A stretch of DNA of 64,000 bases from Mycobacterium florentinum (GTDB lineage Bacteria > Actinomycetota > Actinomycetes > Mycobacteriales > Mycobacteriaceae). Every line of letters begins with the position of its first letter. Position 1 is the stretch's first letter. This document shows, piece after piece, positions 20,256-37,848 of the stretch. The notes below the pieces were generated by a model. The model ran no database searches, was not told where the DNA came from, and worked only from the letters and a program-made list of their open reading frames with translations. The stretch is taken from contig NZ_AP022576.1 in the NCBI RefSeq assembly GCF_010730355.1, positions 6,076,001 to 6,140,000 of the forward strand. Direction: 5' to 3'. A program made the translations under genes and the position numbers.

Positions 20256-22036
20256 CGGACCTCGATCCTTCAGACGACCATCCCGAGGCGATTACGCTCG
20301 GCCTGCACGACGCCTCGCCGCCGCACATGGTGGACGCCATGGCCAAGGACGTCGAGCTCGAATTGGGTTGGGGCAGGCTAATCTTCGGCCAGACGTTTGC
20401 CGATCCCGACACGCTGGCCGAGGCGCTACGACGAGAAGCGGCCGGTCGCCGCGACATCTGCATCTACGCCCGCGAGTCGCACGTGGTGGTCGCCAAAGCA
20501 CCAACCGAGCTTTTCATCGATCCCAGTCACACCTATCGACTGCGCTTTACCCCCGAGCACGCGGAAGGCTTGGCGCCGTCACCGCTGGGCGTGACAGTGC
20601 GCACGCTGAATGACCCCGCCGATGCCGATGCGATGAACCGCGTCTTTGTGCGCTGCGGAATGGTTCCCGCTCCGGTGGAGACGATTTGGGACAACCACCA
20701 GCACGCGGATGCGGTGACCTACCTGGTCGCCGTCCGCGACGAGGACGGCGCGGTGGTGGGCACCGTGACCGGCGTCGACCACGAGGTGTTGTTCTGCGAC
20801 CCCGAGCACGGGTCGAGCCTGTGGACGCTCGCGGTCGACCCGGCTGCTGGATTGCCCGGCATGGGCGAGGCCCTGACCCGCACGCTGGCTGAGCACTTCC
20901 GCAGTGCGGGTCGCGCCTATATGGACCTGTCGGTCGGCCATGACAATGCTGCCGCCATCGCGCTCTACGAAAAGCTGGGTTTCCGCCGCGTTCCGGTGCT
21001 GGCGATCAAGCGGAAGAACGCCATCAACGAGCCGTTGTTCAGCCCGCCCCCGGAGACCGTCGATGACCTCAACCCGTACGCGCGGATCATCGCCGATGAG
21101 GCGCTGCGACGTGGAATCCAGGTCGAGGTACTCGATGCCGAGACCGGCGAGATGCGACTGTCTCTCGGCGGCCGCAGCCTGATTACCCGCGAGTCGCTGT
21201 CGGAGTTCACCTCGGCGATCGCTATGTGCCGATGCGACGACAAGCGCCTGACTCGGCGCCTGGTCTCCGACGCCGGCATTACCGTGCCGCGTGCCCGCCT
21301 GGCCACGTTCAACGACGACGACTATGTGTTCTTGCACGAGGTCGGCGAGGTCGTCGTCAAACCGACTCGTGGAGAACAAGGTAAGGGCATCACCGTCGGC
21401 GTTGTCGCCGAAGACGAGCTCACTACCGCCCTGGCGCGGGCGCGCCAGCAGTACCCGGAGGTGCTGATCGAGCAGCGGGTAAATGGCGATGACCTCCGAT
21501 TGGTTGTGATCGACGGCCGGGTCGTTGCCGCGGCACTGCGAGTGCCTCCGGAGATCATCGGCACGGGGGAGCACACCGTGCGGGACCTGATTGCGGCCGA
21601 GAGTCGGCGGCGTTCTGCGGCCACCGGGGGTGAGTCCCGTATTCCGCTCGATGACCTCACCGAGTCGACGGTCCGTGATGCCGGTTGGATGCTGGACGAT
21701 GTGCTGCCCGAGGGAATTCGGCTGCGTGTTCGCCGCACCGCCAATCTCCATCAGGGCGCCACGATCCACGACGTGACCGCCCAGGTGCATCCGGACCTTT
21801 GTCGGGTCGGGGTGGCTGCGGCCGAGGCGATCGGCATCCCGGTGACGGGTATCGATTTGCTCGTCCCCGACATCACCGGCGTTGAGTACGCCTTCATCGA
21901 AGCCAACGAGCGGCCCGGGTTGGCCAACCACGAACCGCAACCCACAGCCACTGCTTTCATCGACTTCCTGTTTCCCGGGCAGCAAGGCGTGCCGACGGCG
22001 TGGAGTCCCGAAGAGCCTCCACCGCATCACGATTGA
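20252..22036 (+). CDS. ngg: N-acetylglutaminylglutamine synthetase (GNAT + ATP-grasp fusion)
   Basis: 594 residues starting at the ATGA overlap with the amidotransferase. The first half (about 110-270) is a GNAT acetyltransferase: SLWTLAVDPAAGLPGMGEAL, then SVGHDNAAAIALYEKLGF. From about residue 300 an ATP-grasp ligase follows: VVVKPTRGEQGKGITVGV (nucleotide-binding loop), VLIEQRVNGDDLRLVVIDG and EYAFIEANERPGLANH (metal/ATP residues). This fusion is the TIGR03103-type NAGGN enzyme, which acetylates glutamine or the dipeptide and joins two glutamines with ATP. With the upstream amidotransferase it should make the compatible solute NAGGN. The third gene often found with this pair, an M42-family peptidase, is absent here. 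Stop lies 3 bases from the convergent aldehyde dehydrogenase stop. Confidence 0.9.
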   Translation: MTDLDPSDDHPEAITLGLHDASPPHMVDAMAKDVELELGWGRLIFGQTFADPDTLAEALRREAAGRRDICIYARESHVVVAKAPTELFIDPSHTYRLRFTPEHAEGLAPSPLGVTVRTLNDPADADAMNRVFVRCGMVPAPVETIWDNHQHADAVTYLVAVRDEDGAVVGTVTGVDHEVLFCDPEHGSSLWTLAVDPAAGLPGMGEALTRTLAEHFRSAGRAYMDLSVGHDNAAAIALYEKLGFRRVPVLAIKRKNAINEPLFSPPPETVDDLNPYARIIADEALRRGIQVEVLDAETGEMRLSLGGRSLITRESLSEFTSAIAMCRCDDKRLTRRLVSDAGITVPRARLATFNDDDYVFLHEVGEVVVKPTRGEQGKGITVGVVAEDELTTALARARQQYPEVLIEQRVNGDDLRLVVIDGRVVAAALRVPPEIIGTGEHTVRDLIAAESRRRSAATGGESRIPLDDLTESTVRDAGWMLDDVLPEGIRLRVRRTANLHQGATIHDVTAQVHPDLCRVGVAAAEAIGIPVTGIDLLVPDITGVEYAFIEANERPGLANHEPQPTATAFIDFLFPGQQGVPTAWSPEEPPPHHD

Positions 22037-22039
22037 GGG

Positions 22040-23755
22040 TCAGCCGCGTACCGCGGAAGCGAGAATCCCTGGCAGCGCAGCAGGATTGCGGAGCACGGCG
22101 AATTTGACCAGTCGGCGTACCGTGGTCAAGGCCGTTTTGTTGGTTATGAAGAACACCGGTTTTGGTGAGAGCGTCAGCTCGCCGCCGAAGAAAGAGCGTG
22201 GCGCCGGGCGGAAGGGAACCTCGACCACGGCCTTCTGCGGCTTCGCCAGCATGAAAGCGTTGTGCACCATGCCGATACCGCTGCCGATGCTCTGCGGGGT
22301 GTTGCCGGGATAGGCGCCCCAGGGTGCGAGCGCGAAGACCATCCCGGTCCACACATTAATGCCGATGGCGCCGTAGTGCAGCCGTGCGATGGCGTCATCG
22401 AGCACTTCAGCATTGTGCTTGCGGGTCTTGGGGTCGATGGCGATGACGGCGCCGAGGGACCCGGGCAGTACGTCGTTAGCGAATGCAACGGCGTTGTCCA
22501 GGAATTGTTTTGGGGTCTTGCCGGGGAGGCGCACAACGCCGAGCACTCCTGCGAATACCTCGTCTGTCAGGATGCTGGCTCCACTGCCTGGGTCGACGTC
22601 GGGGATGAGGGCGCGAGTCTTCTGGTTGCAAAAAAATTCGGCGCCGGGCATACCGTCGCACGCTTTGGCGGTCCTCTCCTGCGAGTGTGGGTAGTACGGC
22701 GGTCGTGGTTCGGCATCGCGCATGACGGTGCGGATTTCGTCGATAAGTTTGTCGGCCAGTGGCCAGTCCTGCGGGATGACGAGGAGTTGGGTGGCGTTGC
22801 AATTGTGGCCGCAGTTGGTGAGTTTGGTCGTCGCGATGTGCTCGGCCTGGAACCTGAGGTCGGCATCGCTCCAGTCCCCGGGGACGACAATGAACGGGGT
22901 GACGCCGCCGAGTTCGGCGGTAATCGGCTTGCGTACAAGCGGTGTGTTGTCAGCTTTTCGAGCCGCGACGCTGTCGTCGGTGCCCCAAGTGACCGCGTCG
23001 TAGGTAGCCGCCGAACCCGTCATATGGATCGTGTCGATCTTCTGGTGTTGTGTTAGGTAACCACCAACATCGGCGCCGCCGTACAGGATACGAAGCCAGC
23101 CCCGCGAGATGAATTCACCGAAGATCTCTTCGTAGAACGGTCCGAGGTAGTCGTTGACCGGGTTCAACTTCACGGCGCAGACATTGCCCCGCACGTACAG
23201 CTGGTCGATGATATCCAGCGCCGTGATGGAGCCCAGGTTGCCGGCACCCAGTACCAGGCAGACTCCGGACCGGCCCGGGGTGCGACCGCGGTAGATCTGG
23301 GCGGCGTCCCTGCGCGTCTGCTCGGCGTCCGTAGCCGCCTCCATCCACACGGTGGCGTGGTAGCCGTGGAAGAACAGACGGTCGTACGGGGTGAGGGGGA
23401 AGATGTCGACGACGACCTGGCCATCGGGCCGCGTGTGCACGGCTCCGGCGTCGATCGGTTCCTTTCCGGCGAGAATCCGCTTGAGGACGCGTAGTTGCGT
23501 GTTGATGGCCTGGATGGACACCCAAATGTTGGTTGTCCACTCCTCCGCGGCCCAGGTGGAGTTCGACGAGATACCTTTGGCCTCGGCGGAAGCGGTCACC
23601 ATCTGCGGGGCAACATCAAAGATCCTGTGGGGCAACGCTTCCAGCATCGTCACTTTGTCGGCCAAGGGCAAAGCCGCCCAGCTCGGAGCGCCGGAACTCA
23701 AGTCGTCGAGCGCCTTTTCGAGCGCTGGTGCGTCCATCGCGGTCCCCGCGGTCAT
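22040..23755 (-). CDS. Long aldehyde dehydrogenase-family protein
   Basis: 571 residues from ATG at 23755, with an excellent GGAGGGCGACG before it; the frame opens further upstream but without such a site. It is about 90 residues longer than a standard ALDH. The Rossmann part shows CLVLGAGNLGSITALDIIDQ, a spaced version of the usual cofactor region; HMTGSAATYDAV replaces the common FTGS motif; the Glu loop is TAELGGVTPF and the Cys loop is TNCGHNCNATQLLV, so both catalytic residues are kept. The C-terminal segment GGELTLSPKPVFFITNKTA is hydrophobic and may associate with membrane lipid. Long ALDHs of this kind in actinobacteria often handle long-chain or bulky aldehydes; that is inference. 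It converges with ngg, and a very large regulator gene ends 116 bases upstream on the same strand. Confidence 0.85.
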   Translation of the reverse strand: MTAGTAMDAPALEKALDDLSSGAPSWAALPLADKVTMLEALPHRIFDVAPQMVTASAEAKGISSNSTWAAEEWTTNIWVSIQAINTQLRVLKRILAGKEPIDAGAVHTRPDGQVVVDIFPLTPYDRLFFHGYHATVWMEAATDAEQTRRDAAQIYRGRTPGRSGVCLVLGAGNLGSITALDIIDQLYVRGNVCAVKLNPVNDYLGPFYEEIFGEFISRGWLRILYGGADVGGYLTQHQKIDTIHMTGSAATYDAVTWGTDDSVAARKADNTPLVRKPITAELGGVTPFIVVPGDWSDADLRFQAEHIATTKLTNCGHNCNATQLLVIPQDWPLADKLIDEIRTVMRDAEPRPPYYPHSQERTAKACDGMPGAEFFCNQKTRALIPDVDPGSGASILTDEVFAGVLGVVRLPGKTPKQFLDNAVAFANDVLPGSLGAVIAIDPKTRKHNAEVLDDAIARLHYGAIGINVWTGMVFALAPWGAYPGNTPQSIGSGIGMVHNAFMLAKPQKAVVEVPFRPAPRSFFGGELTLSPKPVFFITNKTALTTVRRLVKFAVLRNPAALPGILASAVRG

Positions 23756-23871
23756 CGTCGCCCTCCGATCGCCGACCCTATTATCTGCAAAGTAGGCTCG
23801 AGCTCGGACGAAATCCACGGTGCCAGCAAGTTGGCAGGCGCTGTTGTCAGAAGCTGGAGATCTCGGTTCGC

Positions 23872-26800
23872 TCACGTATCGAGTTCCTCGAAGCGCGCGA
23901 GCGCTACGTCGAGGTCCGCCTCGTCGAAGAATTCGTAACGTTTGATCAGGTCGCCATCAACGATGAAGACATCGGTCATGCGCCACTCGGCCTCGAAGCC
24001 CCCTCGCGACGTCCCCTGAGCTGCGTGGGTGACAACCGCGCCACGGTCGGTTAGCCGATGAACGCAGACGGGGTAGACGTGGCTGCGGGCCGAGTCATTC
24101 AGCGAGACGCGGAGGTATTGACTCAGGTCGCCCGGCGCCAGCAATGCCCCACGTCGATGATCGATGTCTTCGAAGTCCTCTGTTGTCGTGGGCATTTCCC
24201 CTCGATTGATCATTTCGAAAACCCGGGTTATGGCTGACCACGTACGCGAGTATGCGGCCGCCTCGCCGGCGAGATATCGTGCCTCAAGCTCTGCGAAGGC
24301 GGCGGCCACGTCGTCGGTATCGAAACTAATCTGGGCGACGATCCGATTGTCGGAGTTTGCCTCCACGACGCCGAGCGTCTCCGTGAAGAACGCGGGCCCT
24401 TGATCGCGGCCTGAGAACACGAATCGACCGAGGGCCAGGCGATCGCCGCGCGTCGCAATGACCGTCGACGAGATATCCGTCCTCCCGAGTTCGGCGATCG
24501 CCCGCATGTCCGCGATTGCGGCGTCTCTCCCGAGTCGCAGTCCCGTGCCCACTACCCGACGGCGATCATCGGCAGAAGTGTTGTCTGCTAATGTCTCTGA
24601 CATGGCGGTCCAGTCGCCTGCCGCGTAGTACGCCTGGAAGCGCTCGACAAGCTGACTTGCCGTATTTTCTAATTGCGGCGGCCGCGAGCACAATTCGTCG
24701 AAGCGGGCAAGAGCGGCGTCGAGGTCCGCCTCGTCGAACATCTCGACGCGGCTGATCAAGTCGCCGTCGACAGTGATGACGTCTGTTACGTGCCACTCAG
24801 CATCGAACCCCCGGTGCGACGTATTCCTCGCCACATGGGTGACGACCGCGCAGGAGCCTGCCAGCCGATGAACGGCCTCAAGATAGATGCGGTTGCTTTT
24901 GATGTCGTCGAACGATGCACGAAGGTATTCGATCAGTTCACCGGGAGCCAGTGGGCCTCGGCGATGGTCAATATCCACAAAGTCCGTTGTTATCGCTGGC
25001 ATTTCACCTCGACCGAGCGCAACAAACCCCCGGGCGATGATCGACCACGTGTGCGCGTGGGGGGCCGCCTCGACCGCGAGGTATTGAGCATCAAGTTCCT
25101 CGAAGGCCGCATCGATGTCTTCTGCGTCGAATAAGGCGGCGGTGGTGAGTCGGTTGTTGCCATCGGCCTGAACGATGCCAAGCATGTCTGCGCTGGTCTC
25201 CCCGGGTTCGAAGTCATGGGCCGAGGACCAAACACGACTGAGGGCGAGGTATTGCCCGCGCGTCGCGATCACGGTCGATGCGATAGCCTCGAACCCGACC
25301 TCGGCGACCGTCCGCATATTTGCGACATGGACATCACGACCGCGCATAACACCTGCGTTGACAACCCGGCGGTGATCATGTGACCAGAAGTCGTCAATCA
25401 TTGTGTCGGCCAATGCGGCCCAGTCCTGGGTGGCGAAGCAGGTCCATAGACGCGCTACCGCTCGGCTTGCCGCGTTTTCCAGTGGCGGCGCCTGCGGCTG
25501 CAGTTCGTCGAAGCGGGCAAGAGCGGCGTCGAGATCCGCCTCGTCGAAGACCTCACCGCGGTTGACCAAATCGCCTTCGACCGTCAAAACGCTGACCACT
25601 CGCCACTCGGTGTAGAAACCCTCTTGCGAGGTCTCGTGCGCCACGTGCGTGATGACACAACCGAGGTCGTTCAGTCGATGCACCGACTCGATGAAGCTCC
25701 TCAGGTCAGATGCGTGTTCCCACGCGGCATTGAGGACTGTAGACATCTCGCCGGGCGCGATTGATGTCCCTCGTCGGTGGTCGATGTTCACCCAGTCTGG
25801 CGTAGTCTGGGGCATTTCGCGCCGATTGAGCACGGCAAAGCCCTGCGTGATGACCGACCACGTGTCAGCGTGGGCGGCGGCTTCGGCCGCGAGGTAGCGG
25901 GCATCGAGTTCGGCGAATGCTGCGTCGATGTTGTCGAGGTCGAATGCGACGGTCGCGGCGCACCGGCCGTCTGCATTCGCTTCGACGACGATCAAAATTT
26001 CTACGACGAATCCCTCTAACCCGTGTTCGTATGCGGCATACCGCAAACGGCTGAGGGCGAGGCGTTCACCCCGGACCGCAATTACAGTCTGTGATATTTG
26101 TGTGGTGCCGACGTCGACTTGTGCTTGCGCGCTGACGATCTCGGCGTCACGGCCGTAGACGCCGCCGCCTGTCAGGTGACGACGATCGTCGGTGTAGTAG
26201 TCGTCGGCCAGTACTTCCGCCGCTGCTTCCCAATCGCGGGCGACGACTCGTTCCAGATAGCGAGCAGAGGCGCGGCTGGCTGTGTTTTCCAGCCCTCGCG
26301 CGGTTGGGTGTAATTCCTCAAAACGTGCGATCGCAGCGTCGAGGTCTTCTTCATCGAATAGTTCGCAGCGGCTGACCTTTTCGCTGTCGATTATCGAAAC
26401 GGCGATTGCTCGCCATTCGGCGTCAAAGCCCTCCTTCGAAGTTCCGTGGGTCACGAAGGTGATGACCGCTCCGAGGTTGCTCAACCTATGGACCGCCTCG
26501 GCATGAGTTGTGTCATGGTCGAGTTCGGAACCGGTACTGACAAATGCAAGCAGCTGACCGGGGGCGAATGCCACTGTGCGGCGGTGATCGACGCTCACGA
26601 ACTCCGGCGTGGTCGGCAGCGGCTCGTGTCGGTTGAGCGCGGCGAAAGTTTCCATGATCACCGACCACGTGTGCGCGTGGGCGGCTGCCTCGCCGGCGAG
26701 GTAGCGCGCATCGAGTTCGGCGATGGCGGAATCGATGTCGTCGGGTTCGAACGAGGCGATTGCGGCGATCTGCTGGTTGGCGTCGATTTCGGCGATGCCG

Positions 26801-28715
26801 ACTACCTCCGTGAGGAACTCCGCGGCGTCTTGGCCGCGGAATGCGAACCGGACACGCGTGAGGGCAAGGCTGTCCCCGCGGGTGGCAATGACGTGCGGCG
26901 CCACCGTGGTGAGCCCGATGTCGGCAATCACCCGCATATCGGCGATCTGACCGTCCCGACCATGCCGGATTCCCGCGCCGACCACAGCACGGCGGTCGTC
27001 ACTCCAAAAGTCGTCGCTCATCATCTGCGTCATGGCATCCCAGTTTTGAGCTACGAGATGCCTCATGAATTGCTCGCCCAGTCGACTCGCCGTGTTTTCC
27101 AGCCGATACACCGGCCGGCTGAGCTCTTCGAACCGCGCGAGCGCCGCGTCCAAGTCTGCCTCGTCGAACAACTCGAAGTGATTGACCCTGTTGCCCACTA
27201 GCGTGGACACGATGACGTCTTGGAACTCGGCGTCGAAGCCGGCGTTCGAGGTTACCTGCGCCGTATGAGTGATGACCGTGCCGAGTTCATTCAGCCGATG
27301 CACGATCGTGGGATGGATGTTGGTTCTTTGGCTTTGATCGATCGCAGCGCGGAGGTATTGGAGGAATTCACCGGGCGCGAAAGCGGCGGCTCGGCGGTGA
27401 TCAATCGTCACGGCGTCGGCTGTCATCGGGGGTAGCTCGTGTCGGCTCAGCGCGGCGTAGTTCTCAGTCGTTATCGTCCACATGTGTGCGTACGGCGCCG
27501 CTTCGCCGGTGAGGTAGCGCGCCTCGAGATCATTGAACGCCGCGTCGACGTCGTCCAGATCGAAGATATCGACCAGTGTGATCCGCTTGTCAGCGTCGAT
27601 CTCGATGAGATTGAAGGCATCGTTTTGGACTGTCTCGGGGTCGCGACCGGCGGCGCGCACGCGTGTGAGAGCGAGGCGCCCGCCGCGGATCGCAACAACA
27701 TCCAACATCGAAATCGAGAAGAGCTCGGCAGCCACCCGCAGGTCGTCGATCACGGCATCTCGGCCACCCCGCATCCCGGCATTGACGACCCGCCGGTGAT
27801 CCATACCGGAAACGCTCTCGGCGAGAGTTTCAGTCACCGCATCCCAGTCGCGGGCCGCGAAATGTGACCAGAAGCGGTCGTATACGCGCGTTGCCGCGTT
27901 CTCTGGCCGCCGTGCCGGACGGCTGAGTTGTTCGAACCGCGCGAGCGCGGCGTCCAATTCCGCCTCGTCGAAGACTTCAGAGCGGCTGATCTTGTCGCTG
28001 TCGACCATCAATATGGTGATCCCTCGCCATTCGGCGTCGAAGCCCTCTTGCGAGGTCTCCTGCGCCGCGTAAGTGATTACCACCCCGAGGTCAGCCACCC
28101 GATGCACGGCCTCGATATAAATTCGGGTCTCTTGCTCGGCGTCCAGCCCGGCACGCAGGTACGCGACCAGGTCACCGGGCCCGAACGCTGCCTCCCCACG
28201 GTGGTCGATGTTGACCCAGTCCGCTGTAGTTGCGGGAAATTCGTGCCGGTTGAGCGCGGCGTAGGCCCCAGCGATGATCGACCAGGCGTGCGCGTTTGCC
28301 GCGGCTTCGCCTGCGAGGTAGCGGGTTTCGAGCTCGGCAATGGCAGCGTCGAAGTCGTCAGGGTCGAACACGACGTCGGCCGCTATGCGCCCATCGGTGT
28401 CGATCTCAACGACGTTGATGGCATCGCTTGCAATTGTCTCCGAGTCGCGGCCTGACGCATGGGTGTGTATAAGCGCGAGGCGCTCACCGCGAATCGCGAT
28501 GACGGCCAACATATTTATCTCCATGCCGACGTCTGCCGCTGCCCGCAGCTCGTCGATGCCGGCGACTCGACCATATCTAATTCCGGTATTGACAACACGC
28601 CGTCGATCGTCGATGGAATAGTTATCGGCCACTACTTGAGTTATGACATCCCAGTTGCGCGCGGCGAAGTCGGAAAAGAGCCGTTCGTGTACACGGGTTG
28701 CGGCGTTTTTGAGCC
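23872..28715 (-). repeat. Six tandem coding repeats of about 807 bp (268-270 residues)
   Basis: The marker sequence N(A/T)A(S/T)(R/Q) opens each unit at residues 1433, 1702, 1970, 2240, 2510 and 2780 of the giant regulator (codons starting at 28707, 27900, 27096, 26286, 25476 and 24666). The spacing is 269, 268, 270, 270 and 270 residues. Each unit holds two similar halves. The A half has DWxA, DxRRxVxxG, GRD, V(I/V)AxRGxxLAL and (D)DxDAA; the B half has the IDHRR, APGE, TSxxGFxAEW and FDEADLDAALARFEEL motifs. The units are diverged, so this is old internal duplication rather than recent slippage. Confidence 0.85.
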
Positions 28716-31700
28716 GGCGGGCTGGTGGCTGTGCCTCTTCGAACCGGGCGTGCGCGGCGTCGAGTTCTGCAGTCGCTCCGTCGATGTCGTCGATATCGAA
28801 CCACACGTCGAGCGCGAATCGACCGTCCTCGTCGATGCCGATTAGCTGTAACAACTCTTCGCGCGGCGCCCCGGGACTGACATCCGCGTTGCCCAATTCC
28901 GTTTTGTAGAGAGCCAACCGCTCGCCTCGCACAGCGACAAGCGTGCGACGGAGTTGAACCATTCCGTCCAGCTCGAGAGAACGTCGTGCGTCGTATGGCC
29001 ATCGGCCAGACCGAAGATCGGCGCTTGCAAAACCGAGTATCTTGCGGCGACTCTCGAAGAAGATGTCGTCCGCGAAATATCCCTCGAACTCGTCAAAGGC
29101 CCCACGATGGAAAGCCGCATCTCCGCGGGCGACCGCTCGCACGCACGCATTGTCGAACTCGACGTGCGACGGCTCGGGTCGAGCGGACGGAGCGACGGGC
29201 TGCTCGACGCGCCTGCCGAGAAGACCCCGCGCCATCTCAGCCAGTGCCGCAGCGCCTTTGCGTTCGTACAAGCCAACCGCTTGCTCGGCGGAGGCTCGCG
29301 CTCCTGCGACATTCCCGGCGGCCGCCAAAACGGTTGCCAGCGTGAGGCATGCGTCGCCGTGATCAACCAGGGCGTCAGTGCGCTCGGCCAAAGTCACCGC
29401 AGCCTCCGCAACCCGGCGGGCCTCCTCGTGGTCACCGCCGCGCGCCAGCAGATGTGCCCGAAGCGTGCGCCAGCCCATCGACGCTTTCAGCGCGTGGCCG
29501 GCGAGACGCTCGCTCTCCGAGCATAATTCGTCCGACTCGGCGACGCGGTCGAGCGCGAGGCAGGCACGGCCCAGCAGCGCGGCGGTCTCGGCGGTGTCGG
29601 CGTCGAGGCCCATGCGACGAAAGCCGTTGTAGGCCTTGCGCAGAGGTGGCTCGGCCGCCGCAGGGTCGCCGACGATGAGCTCGACGATGCCGGCGAACTG
29701 CTCAACCTCGAGCCGCGCGTGACGTAACCCGAGTTCGACGACGGTGCGTCGGGCGGAGTCGATCATCCGCCGTGCCGCGGCGGCGCGTCCGCGGAAAGCC
29801 TCCAGCACGGCCTGACAACGGGTGGAAGTCGCTTCGACCGCGGGGGAGTCGGTGGTGATTCGGAGCAACCGCACCACGTCAAGACACCGCCCGCCCGCGC
29901 GCGGAACTGGGTTGGGCCCCCATAATGCCGCGAGCGGCGCCCCCGCCAAGACCGCGTTCACCCGCCGGTGTTCACGCGCTCGTCGCGCCGCGGTCAGCGC
30001 GTCGTCCAACGCGATTTCGCAGTCGCCGATTCGCCCGAGGCGGGCGAGGCATCCGGCGCGTACGGTATGCGCCTTGGCTTCTCCGTTGGCGTCGTCCAGT
30101 TGGGCGAGTTTGGCGGCGGCCGCGCCCAACGCAACCTCCGCCTCGTCCAATCGCTCGGGGTGAATCAACATCGAAAGTTGGCCGTCGAAGCATGTTGCCC
30201 ATGCCGCCAGCCGGGCCGAATCGATTGTCGTTTCCTGCAATTGGGCGACCGCACCCGCCGCAGTAACCACATCACCCGCGGCCAGCAGGGCCTCACAGCG
30301 CGCAATCAACAGCTCGGCAGTTTGGTCGTCGCGATCGGGCAGCTCGTCGTCAAGCTCCTCGAGCGAGTGCAGGGCGTGACGGTACAGGTCGGCGGCTCCC
30401 TCATAGGCGAGTCGCGCCATCGCTTGGTCTGCGGCCCGCCGGCAGTAAAAGACTGCCTTGGCCGCGTTTCCCGCCCAAGCGCATTCGTAATAGTGATGAG
30501 CCAACTCGGCCAGCAGCTCGTCGTCGGCACCTGGCAGCGTCTCCAGAGTCGCGGCGATGCGCTGGTGCAATCGCATGCGCCGCACCGAGGCCAACTCGGC
30601 CAGTAGCGACTGGCGGACGATCGCGTGGTTGAACCGGTAGTTGCCGCCGGGCTCCTCGATGACGATGCCTGCTTGGCAGGCCTCGTCGAACGCGTCGATC
30701 AGGTCGCCCCCGACCACGCTCTCGACCAGTTCCAAGGCGAACCGGCTACCGACGACCGCGGCCGCCGCAAGGGCCTTGTTGGTCTCGACCGGAAGCCGGG
30801 AAAGTCGGCGGCTCACCGCTTCTCGTACGCCCTGCGGCAGGGTGCTCTGATCCCATACGCCGCCGCTCTCGTCGATGTGGCGCAGGGCCTCGATGAGGAA
30901 GAAGGGATTACCGCCCGTGACGGACGCCAACGCGTGGGCGAGTTCATCGTCGTCGTAGCCGGCTTCGGCGACGTACGTGGTCACGTCCTCCTCGTCGAGA
31001 CCGGTCAGGCTCAGCCGGTTGGCCGTGCCGTCGCGGTGAAGGTCGGCGAGCGTCGCCGCCAGGGGATGGGAGCGGTCCAGGTCGGTGCTGCGGTAGGTGC
31101 CGACGATCTGCACCCGGGCGTGGTCGCCGAAGCGCAGCAGATGCCGCAGCAGCAGCAGGGTCGGCTTGGCCGCCCAGTGCAGGTCGTCGAGTATCAGCAG
31201 GACCGGCGCACTCTTGGACGCGATTTCCAACAGCGCAACCACGGCATCGAAGAGTGCGTAGCGCTCGGTGTCGGGATCCGGATGGGCCCGAGGGGAGAGA
31301 TCGGGCACGACATCGCTCAGCCCGGGCACCAGTGCTAGCAACGCGTCGGCGCCGCGCAGTCCCCGCAACCGGTCGGCGCCCATGCACGGAACGAGCGAAC
31401 GTAGCGCTTCCGCGAACGGCTGATAGGGCGCACCGAGGTCCTCGTCGCAACGGCCATACAGGACGACCGCCCCTTGCGCATAGGCCCGCTGCGACCACTC
31501 ACCGGCCAGGCGTGTCTTCCCGACGCCGGGCTCGCCGGCGATCAGCACCGTGGGCACACCACCGGCAAGTGCGGCCTGCCACACCGACAGCAGGCGTTCC
31601 AGCTCGCGCCCACGTCCGACGAACGGCCCCGGTCCGACGAGTACCGCGGGCAGGCCGGGACGTTCCATCGGCGGTTCGGCGGTCTGCGATTCGGGTTGGG

Positions 31701-33003
31701 CCGAAGCGGTTTCCAGCCGCAGCTCGAAAACATGCTCGGGGCGGACAAGGTTCTTCAGCTGACGCATTCCCAGGTCGTTGAGCATGACGTCGTCGGCCAG
31801 CGAGTCGATGACGAGCTCGGCAGTCGCACCGGAGCACAGGATCTGACCACCCTCGGCCAGCGATCGCAGGCGCGCCACCCGATTGACCGCCCGGCCGAAG
31901 TAGTCGCCGTCGCGAAGCTCGGCCTCGCCGGTGTGTAACGCCATCCGGACACGAATGGGCTCGCGCGATGTCCATGGCTCGTGAGTGATCGCGTCTTGCA
32001 ACTCAATTGCCGCTGCGGCGGCCGCGGACGGCCGTTCGAACACCGAGAAAGTCGCATCGCCCTCGCCGCGTGTTTTGATCAATCGTCCGCCCCGCGACGT
32101 GACGACCTGCTCGACCAGCTCGTCGTGACGCGCGAGTGCTCTCGCCATGGCATCGGCGTCGGCCTCCCACGCGGCAGTCGATCCCTCGATATCGGTGAGC
32201 AGGAAGGTCACGGCGCGTGTCACTGACGGAAGATGCTGTGTCACAGCAACATCCAGTGACGTATCTTGAGCGACGATCGCGGTTTCGAGCCGCCGAAGCT
32301 CCGGCCCGGGATCGACCCCCAGCTCGTCGGCCAGCAGCGACCGTGCTCGTTGATAAGCCGCAAGGGCTTCACCCTGCCGCCCGCCCCGGTATAGGGCGAG
32401 CATCAGCTGGCCCCATCGCCTTTCGCGCAGGGGAGCCTCGGCCACTGCCGCCTCGAGGTCGCCGATGACTTCGGCGGCCCGGCCGGTGGCGAGTAGCGCG
32501 TCAGCCCGATCTTCGACGAGCGCGGCGTGGCTTTCGATCCAACGGGTCTTCTCGGACAGCCCCCGCTGACCGTCGGGGAGTTCGGGGACTCCGCGCCAGA
32601 GGACCAGCGCCTCCTCCAATCGCACCGCCGCTTGATTGGTGTCGCCGACGGTGGCCGCATCACGCCCGGCCTTGGCCGCTAACTTGTAGCGCGACGCATC
32701 CACGTCGGCGCCGTCTAGCCTCCAGCCCGCTCCCTCGGTGACCACGAGGCCGTCGCCAAGCGCGCGGCGCAGCGAGGAGATATGGGTCTGCAGGGCCTTG
32801 GCGGCCGTGCGCGGCGGATCGTCACCCCACAGCAACTTGATCAGCACGTCGGCGGGCACGACCGATCCGTCGTGTAGCCCGAGCATCGTGAGGATGGCGC
32901 GCGGCTTGGCGCCCGGAATAGCGACGGGCGTCCCGTCCTGTCGGACCTGGAGAGGTCCCAAAACCCCCAGTTCCACCGATGAAAGGCTACTCACATCAGC
33001 CAT
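23872..33003 (-). CDS. Giant SARP-cyclase-ATPase regulator with a tail of about 13 SnoaL/NTF2-like domains
   Basis: A single open frame of 3043 residues. Residues 1-100 are an OmpR-like SARP DNA-binding domain (VELGVLGPLQVRQDGTPVAI, ALQTHISSLRRALGD), and 100-250 the BTAD helices (YQRARSLLADELGVDPGPEL). A class III cyclase spans about 262-435 with metal-binding Asp271 (LLTDIEGS) and Asp316 (GEGDAT) and the transition-state pair Asn374/Arg378 (AVNRVARL), so it may be active. An AAA/STAND ATPase follows: Walker A GEPGVGKTRL (Lys496), Walker B LLILDDLHW (Asp606/607). A helical TPR-like region runs to about 1280. The rest is a string of SnoaL/NTF2-like domains, one single domain (about 1285-1425) and then six tandem two-domain repeats. 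Relatives such as M. tuberculosis Rv0386 or Rv2488c share cyclase-ATPase-helical parts but end in a LuxR domain. No good ribosome binding site is seen before ATG 33003. The role is unknown; a ligand-gated transcription regulator is plausible. Confidence 0.85.
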   Translation of the reverse strand: MADVSSLSSVELGVLGPLQVRQDGTPVAIPGAKPRAILTMLGLHDGSVVPADVLIKLLWGDDPPRTAAKALQTHISSLRRALGDGLVVTEGAGWRLDGADVDASRYKLAAKAGRDAATVGDTNQAAVRLEEALVLWRGVPELPDGQRGLSEKTRWIESHAALVEDRADALLATGRAAEVIGDLEAAVAEAPLRERRWGQLMLALYRGGRQGEALAAYQRARSLLADELGVDPGPELRRLETAIVAQDTSLDVAVTQHLPSVTRAVTFLLTDIEGSTAAWEADADAMARALARHDELVEQVVTSRGGRLIKTRGEGDATFSVFERPSAAAAAAIELQDAITHEPWTSREPIRVRMALHTGEAELRDGDYFGRAVNRVARLRSLAEGGQILCSGATAELVIDSLADDVMLNDLGMRQLKNLVRPEHVFELRLETASAQPESQTAEPPMERPGLPAVLVGPGPFVGRGRELERLLSVWQAALAGGVPTVLIAGEPGVGKTRLAGEWSQRAYAQGAVVLYGRCDEDLGAPYQPFAEALRSLVPCMGADRLRGLRGADALLALVPGLSDVVPDLSPRAHPDPDTERYALFDAVVALLEIASKSAPVLLILDDLHWAAKPTLLLLRHLLRFGDHARVQIVGTYRSTDLDRSHPLAATLADLHRDGTANRLSLTGLDEEDVTTYVAEAGYDDDELAHALASVTGGNPFFLIEALRHIDESGGVWDQSTLPQGVREAVSRRLSRLPVETNKALAAAAVVGSRFALELVESVVGGDLIDAFDEACQAGIVIEEPGGNYRFNHAIVRQSLLAELASVRRMRLHQRIAATLETLPGADDELLAELAHHYYECAWAGNAAKAVFYCRRAADQAMARLAYEGAADLYRHALHSLEELDDELPDRDDQTAELLIARCEALLAAGDVVTAAGAVAQLQETTIDSARLAAWATCFDGQLSMLIHPERLDEAEVALGAAAAKLAQLDDANGEAKAHTVRAGCLARLGRIGDCEIALDDALTAARRAREHRRVNAVLAGAPLAALWGPNPVPRAGGRCLDVVRLLRITTDSPAVEATSTRCQAVLEAFRGRAAAARRMIDSARRTVVELGLRHARLEVEQFAGIVELIVGDPAAAEPPLRKAYNGFRRMGLDADTAETAALLGRACLALDRVAESDELCSESERLAGHALKASMGWRTLRAHLLARGGDHEEARRVAEAAVTLAERTDALVDHGDACLTLATVLAAAGNVAGARASAEQAVGLYERKGAAALAEMARGLLGRRVEQPVAPSARPEPSHVEFDNACVRAVARGDAAFHRGAFDEFEGYFADDIFFESRRKILGFASADLRSGRWPYDARRSLELDGMVQLRRTLVAVRGERLALYKTELGNADVSPGAPREELLQLIGIDEDGRFALDVWFDIDDIDGATAELDAAHARFEEAQPPARRLKNAATRVHERLFSDFAARNWDVITQVVADNYSIDDRRRVVNTGIRYGRVAGIDELRAAADVGMEINMLAVIAIRGERLALIHTHASGRDSETIASDAINVVEIDTDGRIAADVVFDPDDFDAAIAELETRYLAGEAAANAHAWSIIAGAYAALNRHEFPATTADWVNIDHRGEAAFGPGDLVAYLRAGLDAEQETRIYIEAVHRVADLGVVITYAAQETSQEGFDAEWRGITILMVDSDKISRSEVFDEAELDAALARFEQLSRPARRPENAATRVYDRFWSHFAARDWDAVTETLAESVSGMDHRRVVNAGMRGGRDAVIDDLRVAAELFSISMLDVVAIRGGRLALTRVRAAGRDPETVQNDAFNLIEIDADKRITLVDIFDLDDVDAAFNDLEARYLTGEAAPYAHMWTITTENYAALSRHELPPMTADAVTIDHRRAAAFAPGEFLQYLRAAIDQSQRTNIHPTIVHRLNELGTVITHTAQVTSNAGFDAEFQDVIVSTLVGNRVNHFELFDEADLDAALARFEELSRPVYRLENTASRLGEQFMRHLVAQNWDAMTQMMSDDFWSDDRRAVVGAGIRHGRDGQIADMRVIADIGLTTVAPHVIATRGDSLALTRVRFAFRGQDAAEFLTEVVGIAEIDANQQIAAIASFEPDDIDSAIAELDARYLAGEAAAHAHTWSVIMETFAALNRHEPLPTTPEFVSVDHRRTVAFAPGQLLAFVSTGSELDHDTTHAEAVHRLSNLGAVITFVTHGTSKEGFDAEWRAIAVSIIDSEKVSRCELFDEEDLDAAIARFEELHPTARGLENTASRASARYLERVVARDWEAAAEVLADDYYTDDRRHLTGGGVYGRDAEIVSAQAQVDVGTTQISQTVIAVRGERLALSRLRYAAYEHGLEGFVVEILIVVEANADGRCAATVAFDLDNIDAAFAELDARYLAAEAAAHADTWSVITQGFAVLNRREMPQTTPDWVNIDHRRGTSIAPGEMSTVLNAAWEHASDLRSFIESVHRLNDLGCVITHVAHETSQEGFYTEWRVVSVLTVEGDLVNRGEVFDEADLDAALARFDELQPQAPPLENAASRAVARLWTCFATQDWAALADTMIDDFWSHDHRRVVNAGVMRGRDVHVANMRTVAEVGFEAIASTVIATRGQYLALSRVWSSAHDFEPGETSADMLGIVQADGNNRLTTAALFDAEDIDAAFEELDAQYLAVEAAPHAHTWSIIARGFVALGRGEMPAITTDFVDIDHRRGPLAPGELIEYLRASFDDIKSNRIYLEAVHRLAGSCAVVTHVARNTSHRGFDAEWHVTDVITVDGDLISRVEMFDEADLDAALARFDELCSRPPQLENTASQLVERFQAYYAAGDWTAMSETLADNTSADDRRRVVGTGLRLGRDAAIADMRAIAELGRTDISSTVIATRGDRLALGRFVFSGRDQGPAFFTETLGVVEANSDNRIVAQISFDTDDVAAAFAELEARYLAGEAAAYSRTWSAITRVFEMINRGEMPTTTEDFEDIDHRRGALLAPGDLSQYLRVSLNDSARSHVYPVCVHRLTDRGAVVTHAAQGTSRGGFEAEWRMTDVFIVDGDLIKRYEFFDEADLDVALARFEELDT

Positions 33004-33096: not shown

Positions 33097-33801
33097 TTAC
33101 TCCGGCGGCGCGGGGGTCATCGAGGCGATGTAGTAAACCTCGTTGCCCTTGGGATATCCGCCGCCGCCGGTGGCGATGTGGACGTGGTCGTAGTGGTTGG
33201 CGGTTTCGTTTCCGAGGTCGGCGGTCCAGGCTCCCGAGTTGGGGCCCGGATAGATCTTCTGCCGCCAGATCACGTGGTTGATGCCCCACCGCTTCGCATT
33301 GGCCAGCGCATATCCGGCGATCTGGTTGCCGAGTTCGATGCCCTCGGGGCTGGCATGATTCGGGATCATCACGTCGATCGCCAGCCCATTGGGATGCCAT
33401 GGCAGAGCGTCTTGCCGATACCCGTAGATGGTCTTGATCTGCGGGAACAGCACGCTGATGACACGGGCGGCCCAGATGGTCTTCACCTGCAACCGGTCCT
33501 CGGACGCGACACCGGCGGGCAACGGGAATTGGAAGCTCTGTGCCCCGGTCGGCGCGGTCGCCGCCAGCGCCGCCAACGACTCCACCTCCGACGGAGTGGC
33601 GACATGCGGGCCCAGTCCGGTCGCCGGGTCTTTCGGGGGCGGAGCCGCGGTCATGGTCGGGGTTGCGGTGGGGGGTTCAACAGGGAGCGACGACTTCGTT
33701 CCTTGGGCGTAAATCATTCCGGCAGAAACGACGAGCGAGGCCGCGATCGCCATCCAGCGGCTCCGGCCGATGGCTAACACGTTCCTGCTCACCCAGAGCA
33801 C
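33097..33801 (-). CDS. Membrane-anchored/secreted M15-like (D-Ala-D-Ala peptidase fold) protein
   Basis: 234 residues from GTG 33801; ATG at residue 17 is a reasonable alternative. An N-terminal hydrophobic segment (MAIAASLVVSAGMIYAQG) is a signal peptide or anchor, followed by a Pro/Thr-rich linker. The C-terminal part has HPNGLAIDVMIP and NHYDHVHIATGGGGYP: the H-x(6)-D and HxH pattern is that of zinc peptidases of the VanY/M15 and hedgehog-like group, so His and Asp probably bind zinc. Such proteins act on peptidoglycan stem peptides, though many actinobacterial members are uncharacterised. The gene lies just upstream of, and co-oriented with, the giant regulator (93 bases between), and is divergent to the methyltransferase. 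Confidence 0.75.
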   Translation of the reverse strand: MLWVSRNVLAIGRSRWMAIAASLVVSAGMIYAQGTKSSLPVEPPTATPTMTAAPPPKDPATGLGPHVATPSEVESLAALAATAPTGAQSFQFPLPAGVASEDRLQVKTIWAARVISVLFPQIKTIYGYRQDALPWHPNGLAIDVMIPNHASPEGIELGNQIAGYALANAKRWGINHVIWRQKIYPGPNSGAWTADLGNETANHYDHVHIATGGGGYPKGNEVYYIASMTPAPPE

Positions 33802-33944
33802 TTTAGTGTCGTGTGCGACGCATGTGGCGGTCTTTGTTGTTTCTTTTTGGTTCGCTACCTGCGGATCGTGGCGCTGCGGCTCAAGTTATGGTGGCTGCTA
33901 TCGAATTTCTGCTCTCGCGGGCCGGTTTCAGGATGGGGGTAACG

Positions 33945-34868
33945 GTGTCATCGGATGGCGCAGCGCGTACCGAAGGGGACAGTTGGGACCTTGCCTCCAG
34001 CGTGGGAGCGACGGCAACAATGGTGGCGGCATCTCGAGCGTTGGCGTCACGCGATCCGGATCCGCTGCTTGACGATCGGTTCGCCGAGCCGTTGGTCCGC
34101 GCGGTGGGACACCCGTTCTTCACGCGCATGCTCGACGGCGATATTCCTCTTGACGACGCGGATGTACCCCTGACCGCGCGGCAGCGCTGCGAGCAGATGG
34201 CCGTGCGCACAAGGTTTTTCGATAACTTCTTCCTCGCCGCGACCGAGAGTGGGATCCGTCAGGTCGTCATCTTGGCGGCAGGCCTCGACGCGCGGGCATA
34301 CCGGTTGCAGTGGCCCGAGGGCACGGTGGTCTTCGAGGTGGACCAGCCCGAGGTGATCTTGTTCAAGGACACCACGTTGGCTCAGATCGGCGCCGAACCG
34401 ACCGCCGAACGGCGAGCGGTCGGAGTCGACCTGCGCGACGACTGGCCTACGGCCTTGCGCGACAACTTCTTTGACACCGCGGCCCCGACGGCCTGGATCG
34501 CCGAAGGCCTACTGCCGTATCTGCCGCCGGATGCCCAGGATCGGCTTCTGGACAACATCACCGCACTCAGCGCGCCGGGCAGCCGCCTGGCCACCGAAAA
34601 CATCACCGACATGCGCGTGTTCACCGACGAGCGCGCGCGTGCCTTACGCAGCGGGTGGCAAAAGCACGGGCTCGATTTCGACGTCGCCGATCTGGTGTGG
34701 GTCGGTGAGCGTCGCCAAGCCGGCGAGCACCTGGCGGGTACCGGCTGGACGGTCACGCAGCATCCCACCGAAGACCTGTACGCCGAAAACGGATTTGCGC
34801 TTCCGGATCACGAGCTGCTGGCCGAGTTTCGGCGGACCATCAGCTACCTGAGCGCAGAACTGGGCTGA
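33945..34868 (+). CDS. SAM-dependent methyltransferase, TIGR00027/LCMT-like mycobacterial family
   Basis: 307 residues from GTG 33945, chosen because GGGGG lies just before it and the protein then begins within a dozen residues of [20 protein letters not shown], the conserved N-terminus of this large mycobacterial family. Motif I is [15 protein letters not shown] (SAM binding), followed by [12 protein letters not shown] and [14 protein letters not shown], all typical. The family resembles leucine carboxyl methyltransferases; substrates in mycobacteria are mostly unknown, with lipids or polyketides suspected. An open frame runs upstream to 33813 but is not family-like. Its 3' end overlaps the convergent glycosyltransferase by 29 bases. 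Confidence 0.92.
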
Positions 34869-36135
34869 CCGCCGATCGTTTAGGGCCGGCGAAATCCTCG
34901 AGCAGATCGGCCGCACTGGCAACGCTCGCGTCGGGTTTGCTCATCCGAGTGGCGAATTCTCGGGCTCGGCTCACGCATTCCGGAGTGAGGATCTGGCGTA
35001 GATCGGCGACCAATGATGCCCGGTTCGTGTTCGCAAACCGCCGCGCGGCACCGACCTTGAGTCTGGTGATCTGAGCTCCCCAGATCGTTTGAACGAGGTC
35101 CATCGACAGGACCAGCGTGGGAACTCCGGCGCGCAGGCCCGCGGCCGTGGTGCCCGTGCCGCCGTGATGCACGACCGCGCGGCAGGCGGGAAAAATTGCC
35201 GCGTAGTTGACCTCGCCGACCACCTTGACGTTGTCGAAATGTGGCACGGCGCCGAAGTCGCTCCAGCCCGAGCACACCAGCGCCCGCTCACCGAGTTGCG
35301 CACATGCCGCGCTGATCATCTTGACCGTGTCGACGGGAGACTCGACCCGCATGCTGCCGAAGCCGAAGCAAATCGGCGGCGTTCCCGCCGCAATCCACGA
35401 CGCGACTTCCTCGTCGGCGTCTGTCGTCAGTTCCAAGGTCAGCGCTCCGACGAAGGGTCGCTGCCCCTTCCATTTCGCCCATTCGGCTTCCAGACCGGGA
35501 AAGCAAGCCTTGTCATAGGCCTGGATTTCCAGCGATCCACGATCCGCGATGCGTCGCGAGGCTGGACGCGTCGCGTCGGGAAGGCCCAGTTCATGGCGTT
35601 GTGCGTCCTCGAGATGCTTCGTCATCCGCCATGTCAGCAAGTTGGACACGCTCATTGCCGAACGGACCAATGGGGAGGGCAGGATCGGGACCAGTTGACC
35701 GTTGGCCCGGATCGGGACGTAGTGCAGGGTGGCCAGCGGCATGTCGTAGTACTCCGCGACGTTGGCCGCGGTTTCCATGAAGCTCTCGCCGGTGAAGAGC
35801 ACATCGGCGCCGTCCGCCAGTGGGGTCAGCGTTTCGCTCATCTGCACCCAGCTCTGGACGACGGATTCGCGAAGTTCGCGCCACATCCTGATCAGCGAGG
35901 GGACTTTCCACGAGTTGTGGAAGGCGGACGCCCAGAAGTCGCGGTAGGTATCCAGCCATTCCTGTGTGTCGAGCCCATAGGCGACCGCGTTGAGCCCGGC
36001 CGCTTCGGCGAAGGCGACGAGGTCGGGCGAGACGGCCATCTGCACGTCGTGCCCTCGGCGCAGCAATTCGCGGCCGACAGCGACTGACGGCTCTATATCC
36101 CCCCGAGTTCCATAACTTGCGAGCACAAATCTCAT
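34840..36135 (-). CDS. GT1-family glycosyltransferase (glycopeptidolipid/sterol UGT-like)
   Basis: 431 residues. The start [20 protein letters not shown] is the signature N-terminus of the MurG/UGT-like GT1 group that includes mycobacterial glycopeptidolipid glycosyltransferases and M. tuberculosis Rv1524/Rv1526c. The donor-binding C-terminal domain has [10 protein letters not shown] and the [20 protein letters not shown] motif that holds the nucleotide-sugar. Such enzymes add deoxyhexoses or glucose to lipid-linked acceptors. Only one glycosyltransferase and no rhamnose-synthesis gene are nearby, so the product is not known. ATG 36135 has GGGAT upstream. Its 3' end overlaps the methyltransferase gene, and the pair may act on the same molecule (inference). 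Confidence 0.9.
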
Positions 36136-36423
36136 TGCGGATCCCGGATCTTCAGTTGTGGCCTGCCTAGTCCGACCTCAGGGGGCATCGGTGGAAGTGG
36201 TGCTGCGGGCCCAGCGTAGCGTGCCTGGGCGGTGGTGTGAGCAAAGTCTGGATGCATCATGTTCGGGCTCTTCGAGACGAGGAATCTGCGCGTTAATCAC
36301 TTCAGCACCAGCTGGGGCCGATGAAGTGGTTCTCAAAAGCGAAAACGCATGCGATATCACTTTGGCGAACAGCCACACCCCGCCTTTCCCGTGACCCGTG
36401 GGAATCGCGACGCAACATCCGGC

Positions 36424-37194: not shown

Positions 37195-37228
37195 ACCGCC
37201 ACGCTAATGCGCTTACCTGTGTCTGAAC

Positions 37229-37438
37229 TTAGTGATTCCCATGTGCTGCAAGCGTTTCGTGCAATCGGCTAAAGGCCCGGTCAGTCGCCCGACGCGGCCA
37301 CCAGACGTCGTACATCACGATGTCACCGTCATGCCGCAGGACTCGGTTGGGCCGGTCATCGTGCGGGAACCGGAACACCGCCCCGAGTTCGATCTTGGAC
37401 GGGTCCAGGCGCGCAGCGTAGCGGCGATCTTCCGCCAT
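37229..37438 (-). CDS. Small conserved-looking protein of 69 residues, unknown
   Basis: ATG at 37438 is preceded by CGAAGGCG. The product (MAEDRRYAARLDPSKIELGA at the start, then VFRFPHDDRPNRVLRHDGDI) is charged, has no signal peptide or membrane segment and ends with a His/Asn tail. The beta-rich look (GAVFRFPHDD, VMYDVWWP) suggests a small folded domain. The longer open frame to 37576 has no gene-like character. I do not recognise a family. It lies 34 bases upstream of the methyltransferase start on the same strand, so the two may be cotranscribed, and is divergent to a secreted collagen-like protein. Confidence 0.55.
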   Translation of the reverse strand: MAEDRRYAARLDPSKIELGAVFRFPHDDRPNRVLRHDGDIVMYDVWWPRRATDRAFSRLHETLAAHGNH

Positions 37439-37557
37439 CGCCTTCGGGCGAGTGCCCGCCTGAACGGAGCCAAACGAATCCGGACCGCAAACGGCTCCGG
37501 CGGCGCACAATGATGTGGCCGGCTGCCGGCTGGACGTTTGCGGGGAGGAGAACCGAC

Positions 37558-37839: not shown

Positions 37840-37848
37840 ACATGACGT

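Follow-up and report, generated by a model that had tools for sequence, protein, structure and literature searches.

Bacterial one-component regulators usually sense one class of ligand with one domain. In STAND proteins a variable C-terminal superstructure is the expected sensor, and NLRs and Avs-type systems both join a STAND ATPase to a variable C-terminal repeat region. The large SARP regulators of the AfsR type begin with Trans_reg_C and BTAD domains and follow a SARP-STAND-TPR order, which recurs in the protein described here. The mycobacterial mclx proteins (Rv0386, Rv1358, and Rv2488c) carry a class III cyclase followed by an AAA/NB-ARC region in one chain and end in a LuxR helix-turn-helix (accessible part of PMC4452763). 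We analyzed a gene at 23872..33003 on the minus strand of a 64,000-nucleotide stretch of the Mycobacterium florentinum genome (contig NZ_AP022576.1; the whole stretch is called the window). Its product resembles AfsR in its N-terminal Trans_reg_C and BTAD domains and mclx in its cyclase-ATPase chain, but it differs from the former by a cyclase between the SARP part and the ATPase and by an array of NTF2-like domains after the TPR region, and from the latter by ending in that array, with the BTAD head at the N-terminus. What is new is the mode of array evolution: between loci whose heads are 91-98% identical, half or more of the array units lack a close counterpart. We read the protein as a STAND-type cyclase/SARP regulator whose sensor would be modular, with a set of different pockets that the exchange of domains renews, and give this reading a probability slightly above one half.

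A first-pass annotation, made from the sequence letters alone, had proposed an uninterrupted frame of 3043 residues. This was found on the minus strand, where a single open frame runs from an ATG at 33003 to a stop ending at 23872, and the plus strand of the same interval is interrupted by many stops. The features of the gene are as follows.

23872..33003, minus strand: whole gene, 3043 residues, SARP-cyclase-STAND-TPR-leader-(AB)6
32752..32907, minus strand: winged-helix DNA-binding domain Trans_reg_C, residues 33-84 (Pfam E 1e-7, 32.3 bits, over cut-off)
32275..32703, minus strand: BTAD, residues 101-243 (Pfam E 2.6e-37, 128.8 bits, over cut-off)
31810..32217, minus strand: class III nucleotide cyclase (Guanylate_cyc), residues 263-398 (Pfam E 1.3e-8, 35.1 bits versus a cut-off of 21.9)
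31114..31626, minus strand: AAA_16/STAND-type NTPase, residues 460-630, with Walker A K496 and Walker B D606-D607 (Pfam E 5.5e-28, 99 bits versus 32.6)
29179..30423, minus strand: TPR-like region, residues 861-1275 (weak sub-threshold TPR matches around 1182-1247; family-wide conservation)
28711..29178, minus strand: leader NTF2-like domain "0", residues 1276-1431 (A-profile match from residue 1284; own profile)
28300..28710, minus strand: NTF2-like unit A1 (unit profiles)
27904..28299, minus strand: NTF2-like unit B1 (unit profiles)
27496..27903, minus strand: NTF2-like unit A2 (unit profiles; structure modeled)
27100..27495, minus strand: NTF2-like unit B2 (unit profiles; structure modeled twice)
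26683..27099, minus strand: NTF2-like unit A3 (unit profiles; structure modeled)
26290..26682, minus strand: NTF2-like unit B3 (unit profiles; structure modeled, no separate fold search)
25876..26289, minus strand: NTF2-like unit A4 (unit profiles)
25480..25875, minus strand: NTF2-like unit B4 (unit profiles)
25063..25479, minus strand: NTF2-like unit A5 (unit profiles)
24670..25062, minus strand: NTF2-like unit B5 (unit profiles)
24256..24669, minus strand: NTF2-like unit A6 (unit profiles)
23875..24255, minus strand: NTF2-like unit B6 (unit profiles)

The array comprises 13 domains from about residue 1276 to the end of the protein, a leader followed by six A-B pairs with a period of approximately 270 residues, the A units beginning at residues 1432, 1701, 1969, 2239, 2509, and 2779. 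Pfam recognized SnoaL_2 in three stretches of the array (57.8 bits versus a cut-off of 27), and within the protein the A units were 38-57% and the B units 44-59% identical. The predicted models of A2B2A3B3 and of B2 alone were confident and matched NTF2/ketosteroid-isomerase folds; such matches were recorded for A2, A3, and the separately modeled B2, and the remaining units were assigned by homology. On the basis of these models, the predicted fold of the A and B units is an NTF2-like cone, and the earlier estimate of about 13 NTF2-like domains agrees with the 13 units delimited by profiles. The best fold matches spanning more than one domain of the A2B2A3B3 model were Lsd19 and MonBI, which are tandem two-domain polyether epoxide hydrolases, and a sequence search of the PDB returned one chance-level match for an A unit (E 1.1) and none for an A-B pair. 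Site entropies were calculated over 1539 A and 1533 B units and mean-field couplings over 1528 A-B neighbor pairs. Since the couplings of A with the following B (A129-B66, 4.9 standard deviations; A130-B114, 3.7; A133-B32, 3.3) exceed the strongest coupling of B with the next A (3.0 standard deviations), an A unit and the B unit that follows it are likely to form a structural pair.

Unit exchange under a conserved head

Four loci (L041, L040, L049, and L036) share the neighbors of the gene in the window (a 234-residue upstream gene, an LCM methyltransferase, and a glycosyltransferase) at 84-96% identity, and they carry 8, 6, 4, and 10 A-B pairs, respectively, versus 6 in the window. When 40-residue segments were compared with free choice of partner, the head was 94% (L041) and 93% (L049) identical and the array 64% and 59%, respectively; the head means for L040 (58%, 13 segments) and L036 (77%, 23 segments) were low because parts of their heads sit in other frames. 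A few modules survive in these syntenic loci: three of the four keep the leader (77-92% identity), A2 and/or B2 persist at 74-88%, and A2B2 is the pair best retained.

The same pattern was seen when 1082 units from 85 array-bearing frames were compared. The best match of a unit inside its own protein had a median identity of 54% and reached at least 90% in 0 of 1074 cases, which rules out concerted evolution or a set of highly alike repeats; the high avidity for a single ligand that the first-pass annotation had offered as one possibility fails on the same unlikeness of the units. The best match in another protein had a median of 74% and reached at least 90% for 94 of the 1082 units (24 of them from L114 and L115), and for 1049 of 1074 units the nearest unit lay in another protein and not among the siblings. 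Kept units were then counted in 77 directed pairs of loci whose heads were at least 91% identical, the odd count arising from a length filter that acted unequally. On average, the fraction of units with a counterpart at 75% identity or more was 0.42 for heads 95-98% identical (22 directed pairs), 0.24 for 93-95% (26), and 0.15 for 91-93% (27), and the value of 1.00 for heads of at least 98% came from a single locus pair. In the first three of these classes, the units lacking a counterpart at 65% numbered 161 of 324, 253 of 404, and 313 of 434, respectively. Kept units retained their order in 238 of 254 successive cases. Because switches between kept and lost units were equally frequent inside an A-B pair (126) and between pairs (123), the unit of exchange looks to be the single domain. 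L114 and L115, with a head identity of 99.5%, have arrays that are 98-100% alike; as near-identical heads here carry near-identical arrays, the change of arrays looks evolutionary rather than a phase variation, on the thin evidence of one pair. Long-range transfer of units was not seen, since none of the 49 unit pairs that were at least 90% identical had heads below 86% and only 27 of 236054 unit pairs were more alike than their heads.

Homologues with differing numbers of repeats, which the first-pass annotation had anticipated, are common: relatives carry 2-17 A-B pairs and up to 35 domains. The homologue search scored the 7986 candidates sharing most words, and the unit profiles were built on the best 120 of 1051 homologues and the first 20 loci. 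In the set of 142 multi-domain frames (these 120 homologues, the window protein, and the frames of the first 20 loci, with some genes duplicated), 93 were exactly 0(AB)n with n = 4-17, 5 were (AB)n, and 44 deviated, mostly by two or three leader-type matches or a missing last B. A set of named loci was drawn from 80 of 163 relatives (79 loci); 54 were whole, 17 ran off the end of a contig or locus, and 8 were split over several frames. Among the whole loci, 50 of 54 were strictly 0*(AB)n, 51 of 54 ended in B, n ranged from 2 to 11, and the frames from 1978 to 4430 residues. A leader followed by alternating A and B units is thus nearly universal in the family. M. triplex, M. ahvazicum, and M. 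genavense stand near the top of the named relatives by ATPase-TPR identity (93%, 92%, and 90%, respectively). Short homologues (120 listed) were not taken as free-standing A-B proteins, because several are named partial or lie on 1-2 kb contigs, and some were used as alignment rows only. A head or array split over frames was found in L036, L038, L040, L054, L073, L074, L089, L090, L109, L125, L142, L145, L150, and L154, with the split falling between TPR and array in L038 and L125 (apparently the same gene); such frames may reflect decay, assembly error, or a two-protein form.

Candidate pockets and what the array may sense

Along strands b4-b6 variable and conserved positions alternate, so that one face is variable and the opposite face conserved (entropy 3.10 versus 1.24 in A; 2.23 versus 1.35 in B). 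The variable face couples with variable sites of a1 (A8 and A12), b1 (A31 and A33), and a3 (A51, A55, and A58), and likewise in B. These elements, a1, b1, a3, and the b4-b6 strand face, are presumed to enclose the cavity of an NTF2-like cone, so that the most variable sites probably line it. Charged residues made up 6-8% of this candidate pocket set, 18-20% of control columns, and 30-35% of the remaining columns. Between units that are 40-50% identical, agreement within the pocket set was 16% (A) and 22% (B) as compared with about 50% elsewhere, and between units 70-98% identical it was 77-97%, slightly above that elsewhere, although these bins include the set itself. When pairs were binned on outside columns, the 85-93% bins gave 84% for the pocket set in A (55 pairs) and 89% in B (68 pairs), with 88% for the binning columns in both; control columns of near-equal entropy fell below the pocket set, at 74% (A) and 75% (B). 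In the 75-85% bins, where pocket types are mixed, the pocket set was at 57% (A) and 55% (B) versus 52% and 45% for the controls, and below 75% the A pocket set was no better conserved than the controls.

Pooled Nei-Gojobori omega values for 155 inherited unit pairs (39 locus pairs, 75-98% identity, overlapping locus pairs being treated as independent) were 0.16 for the pocket set, 0.22 for the outer strand face, and 0.24 for the rest, and those of the heads were 0.07-0.14. Positive selection at the pocket set was sought and not found in these pairs (omega 0.18 in A and 0.14 in B), and inherited units are, as judged from these ratios, under purifying selection. When units were grouped by single linkage at 70% pocket identity, the 547 A units fell into 311 types, of which 218 were singletons, and the 535 B units into 232 types, of which 150 were singletons. 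This suggests that the candidate pocket types form a large, open repertoire. Since the candidate pocket positions are kept in close units and differ between distant ones, the units appear to behave as stable specificities that are swapped between arrays and not as sites of ongoing mutation. Retroelement hypermutation was rejected as a source of the diversity, as inherited units have omega below 1 and reverse transcriptase (RVT_1, PF00078) gave no match in the host genome at E ≤ 0.001.

These data would fit a regulator that is presumably cytoplasmic and works as follows. The families to which they belong assign an output role to the SARP head and the class III cyclase and a switch role to the STAND ATPase. 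The output end would be the DNA-binding SARP/BTAD head joined to the cyclase, the switch would be the AAA/STAND ATPase with the TPR-like region, and the sensor would be a rod of NTF2-like A-B pseudo-dimers in which each domain has its own, mostly apolar pocket. Because the candidate pockets are apolar, diverse, and kept within types, they point to small-molecule ligands of differing identity, which might be lipids, polyketides, sterols, terpenoids, or metabolites of host or neighbors, each entering different pockets. Filled pockets would alter the rod and the TPR region and free the ATPase to bind ATP and oligomerize, which would activate paired cyclases and set the SARP heads on their DNA target. 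Lineages would re-tune the set of molecules by exchange of whole domains, each retained domain keeping its pocket. The multi-ligand regulator suggested by the first-pass annotation gains support to this extent, in that candidate cavity sites differ between units yet are kept in inherited ones.

Several results weigh against the modular sensor that we propose. Selection against redundant units was sought by shuffling units among arrays and not found, the mean number of similar units per array being 8.45 after shuffling versus 7 observed. The pocket set was picked after the entropies and couplings had been viewed, so that its high variability between units is partly there by construction, although its conservation in close pairs is not; with independent binning, the A pocket set was no better conserved than the rest of the unit (84% versus 88%). 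The four-domain model had a predicted template-modeling score of 0.65 and an uncertain relative placement of its domains, and the couplings between domains are weak beside those within domains (up to 10.8 standard deviations). In the accessible part of PMC7730460, the NTF2-like domains of sigma J, SigG1, and ECF41 are intramolecular modulators, with no ligand binding reported. The more specific proposal that the regulator carries a combinatorial, heritable library of small-molecule pockets (13 here), in which single domains are swapped and retained specificities preserved, is held tentatively and at somewhat less than even odds.

Among the alternatives, an NLR-like receptor of non-self would recognize proteins of phages or competitors through the array and trigger a response through the cyclase/SARP output. 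The protein shares the NLR/Avs plan, and units that turn over while the head stays conserved are reminiscent of an arms race. Targets diversified by diversity-generating retroelements have also been reported in other bacteria to be tied to NACHT defenses (accessible part of PMC10907252). We judge this unlikely, however, because the variable sites seldom carry a charge and seem to lie inside the fold, whereas recognition of proteins would be expected to vary the outer face, and because the head consists of DNA-binding and cyclase domains with no known killing effector; PADLOC gave a single weak match to a 33-residue P-loop piece (E 0.0024). The missing RVT_1 and an omega below 1 in all classes also speak against it. 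Quite unlikely is a scaffold for protein interactions, in which the array would tether partners or oligomerize, the cones gripping a peptide or protein and the copy number setting avidity or length. NTF2-like domains often dimerize or bind proteins, and the copy number does span 2-17 pairs. The SnoaL_2 extensions of extracytoplasmic function (ECF) sigma factors act through intramolecular contacts (PMC7730460, accessible part). Avidity predicts like units, though, where the siblings here match at a median of 54% with none at 90% or more, and the outer strand faces are conserved instead of diverse.

It is very unlikely that the units are an array of SnoaL/KSI-like (ketosteroid isomerase-like) catalysts with different substrates whose products the fused regulator senses. 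Many fold neighbors of the modeled units are enzymes, including Lsd19 and MonBI, and strand b1 closes with an Asp that hardly varies in either unit type (D35 in A, D32 in B) and that may, by the general topology of the fold, correspond to the catalytic Asp of KSI. On the other side, SnoaL_2 alone and no enzyme family reached its Pfam cut-off in the array, and the conserved Arg that follows the Asp in both unit types, together with the coupling of B32 to A133 in the end helix of A, suggests a structural interface. A near-neutral repeat region, in which unequal recombination would lengthen, shorten, or replace units under little selection on content, would suit the wide range of copy numbers, the 8 of 79 named loci that are split, and a shuffled redundancy close to that observed, but it is highly improbable and largely refuted because inherited units are under apparent purifying selection (omega 0.16-0.24), close pairs conserve candidate pocket sites more than nearly equally variable controls, and 50 of 54 whole loci alternate strictly between A and B.

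If the pockets of the proposed modular sensor bind ligands, one protein would hold a genetic repertoire of chemical specificities: a single regulator has at least a dozen candidate pockets that differ from one another, and close species exchange the set while keeping the signaling head. The logic would be like that of repertoire receptors, but with stable modules instead of hypermutation. With ligand-binding pockets, the family would offer a route to what environmental mycobacteria sense, ready biosensor scaffolds, and a tractable example of how a multi-domain sensor sets the threshold of a STAND switch. Should the repertoire reading be true, the sequences of the pockets could tell which molecules each species must distinguish.

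Head motifs, family spread, and neighboring genes

The Pfam matches over cut-off confirm the SARP/BTAD head, class III cyclase, and AAA/STAND ATPase that had been recognized by eye, whereas the TPR-like region is conserved across the family with TPR matches that stay below cut-off. D271, D316, N374, R378, K496, D606, and D607 all sit at the positions first assigned to them. The ATPase residues are conserved, K496 being kept in 99 of 104 relatives and D606 and D607 in 100 of 104, with gaps in the remainder. The cyclase residues are present and near-invariant, D271 and D316 in 97 of 98 relatives each (one gap) and N374 and R378, the putative transition-state pair, in 98 of 98. The cyclase domain aligns with Ma1120, a solved cyclase of M. 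avium (E 2.6e-19), but the HMMER alignment has a two-residue gap near D316, which lies in an insertion relative to Ma1120; because E314, and not D316, is set opposite the Asp of the GDG motif, D316 is a candidate metal-binding residue of the presumed cyclase. The AfsR equivalog NF053617 of NCBIfam was not passed (157.7 bits versus a cut-off of 1430; best stretch residues 8-260). GerE, the LuxR helix-turn-helix, was absent from the 13 Pfam families listed at E ≤ 1, and the C-terminus is NTF2-like, in keeping with the expectation of an N-terminal BTAD head, a C-terminal array, and no LuxR domain there.

The host assembly consists of one contig of 6.22 Mb, in which BTAD was matched 5 times and the cyclase domain 20 times (the array gene counted) and which has one array locus. 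An assembly artefact is unlikely, because the assembly is in one contig, the same architecture recurs in many genomes, and the inherited parts appear to be under purifying selection, and we hold the frame to be genuine. Public protein cluster P0017 (three sequences on three contigs, one of them the host contig) lends weak independent support.

The suggestion of a new class needs qualification, as the protein is not unique but belongs to a large mycobacterial family. Of the 297 genomes sampled in the genus, 138 matched an array query at E ≤ 0.001 (host counted, a few weakly). The A-B profile matched 26 of 397 genomes of the order, namely 24 in the genus and 2 weak single-domain matches in another family, and 7 of 396 genomes of the phylum, namely 6 in the genus and G696, which lies outside the class of the genus. 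In G696 and G093 a zinc ribbon replaces the SARP head and is followed by cyclase, AAA_16, TPR, and SnoaL_2 repeats; a search with the G093 array matched 9 of the 396 genomes of the phylum, of which six are the genus members already counted, one is G696, and two matched weakly. The cyclase-STAND-TPR-array plan is, from these matches, one that recurs under two different N-terminal domains. Public annotation names the relatives "BTAD domain-containing putative transcriptional regulator" or "nuclear transport factor 2 family protein". Literature searches aimed at the family returned no description in open full text, and an earlier notice in subscription papers or preprints is possible. The accessible parts of PMC2447327, PMC4452763, and PMC7730460 do not describe the array family.

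Downstream, 22040-23875 (minus strand) encodes a 611-residue protein with an Aldedh match in residues 191-386 only, and it overlaps the stop of the array gene by 4 bases. This gene is 80% identical over most of its length in L036, is represented by a 60-residue piece in L040, and is not matched in the stretches of L041 and L049 that were compared; being patchy in the syntenic loci, it does not look like an obligate operon partner. The interval 18447-22036 has an asparagine synthase-like gene and, after it, a GNAT/ATP-grasp fusion (about 92-94% in L040 and L041); in L040 the fusion is in two pieces, of which the shorter is at 85%. Upstream, the 234-residue protein at 33097-33801 (minus strand; 84-96% in the four syntenic loci) has a hydrophobic stretch at its N-terminus, a segment rich in Pro and Thr, and the motif HYDHVHI; it had no Pfam match at E ≤ 1 and is possibly a LAS-type peptidase. 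The genes at 33813-38481 (an LCM methyltransferase, a GT28/EryCIII-like glycosyltransferase, and two methyltransferases) are perhaps a tailoring group for a glycolipid or natural product. The sole tRNA found by ARAGORN in the window is tRNA-Asn (gtt) at 57341-57438 on the plus strand.

Comparison with other known systems

The zinc-ribbon sister plan is found at L069:3551-9181 and L070:3526-10881. These proteins share the cyclase, AAA_16, TPR, and C-terminal run of SnoaL_2 with the window protein, but they begin with a zinc ribbon instead of SARP and have 5 units each by profiles; the L070 array is 27% identical to that of the window over a long match, and L069 comes from another class of the phylum. 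A 2498-residue frame at G011:C1:4778089-4782192 has an array 42-45% identical to that of L070. Lsd19 and MonBI are biosynthetic enzymes of about 270-283 residues, the former presumably with two NTF2-like domains in one chain, and their likeness to the array units is of fold only, with a poor two-domain root-mean-square deviation (12-25 Å). The ECF41 and ECF56 sigma factors (sigma J and SigG1) have a single SnoaL_2 domain reported, in the accessible part of the source, to touch the sigma core, and they have no cyclase or ATPase and no array. The fungal NLRs of the HET-E class resemble the window family in joining a NOD/STAND switch to C-terminal repeats that vary in number and content (accessible part of PMC4986451). 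In the same source those repeats are about 85% identical and under positive selection, whereas the units of the window protein are 38-59% identical, those of its relatives match their best sibling at a median of 54%, and inherited units appear to be under purifying selection.
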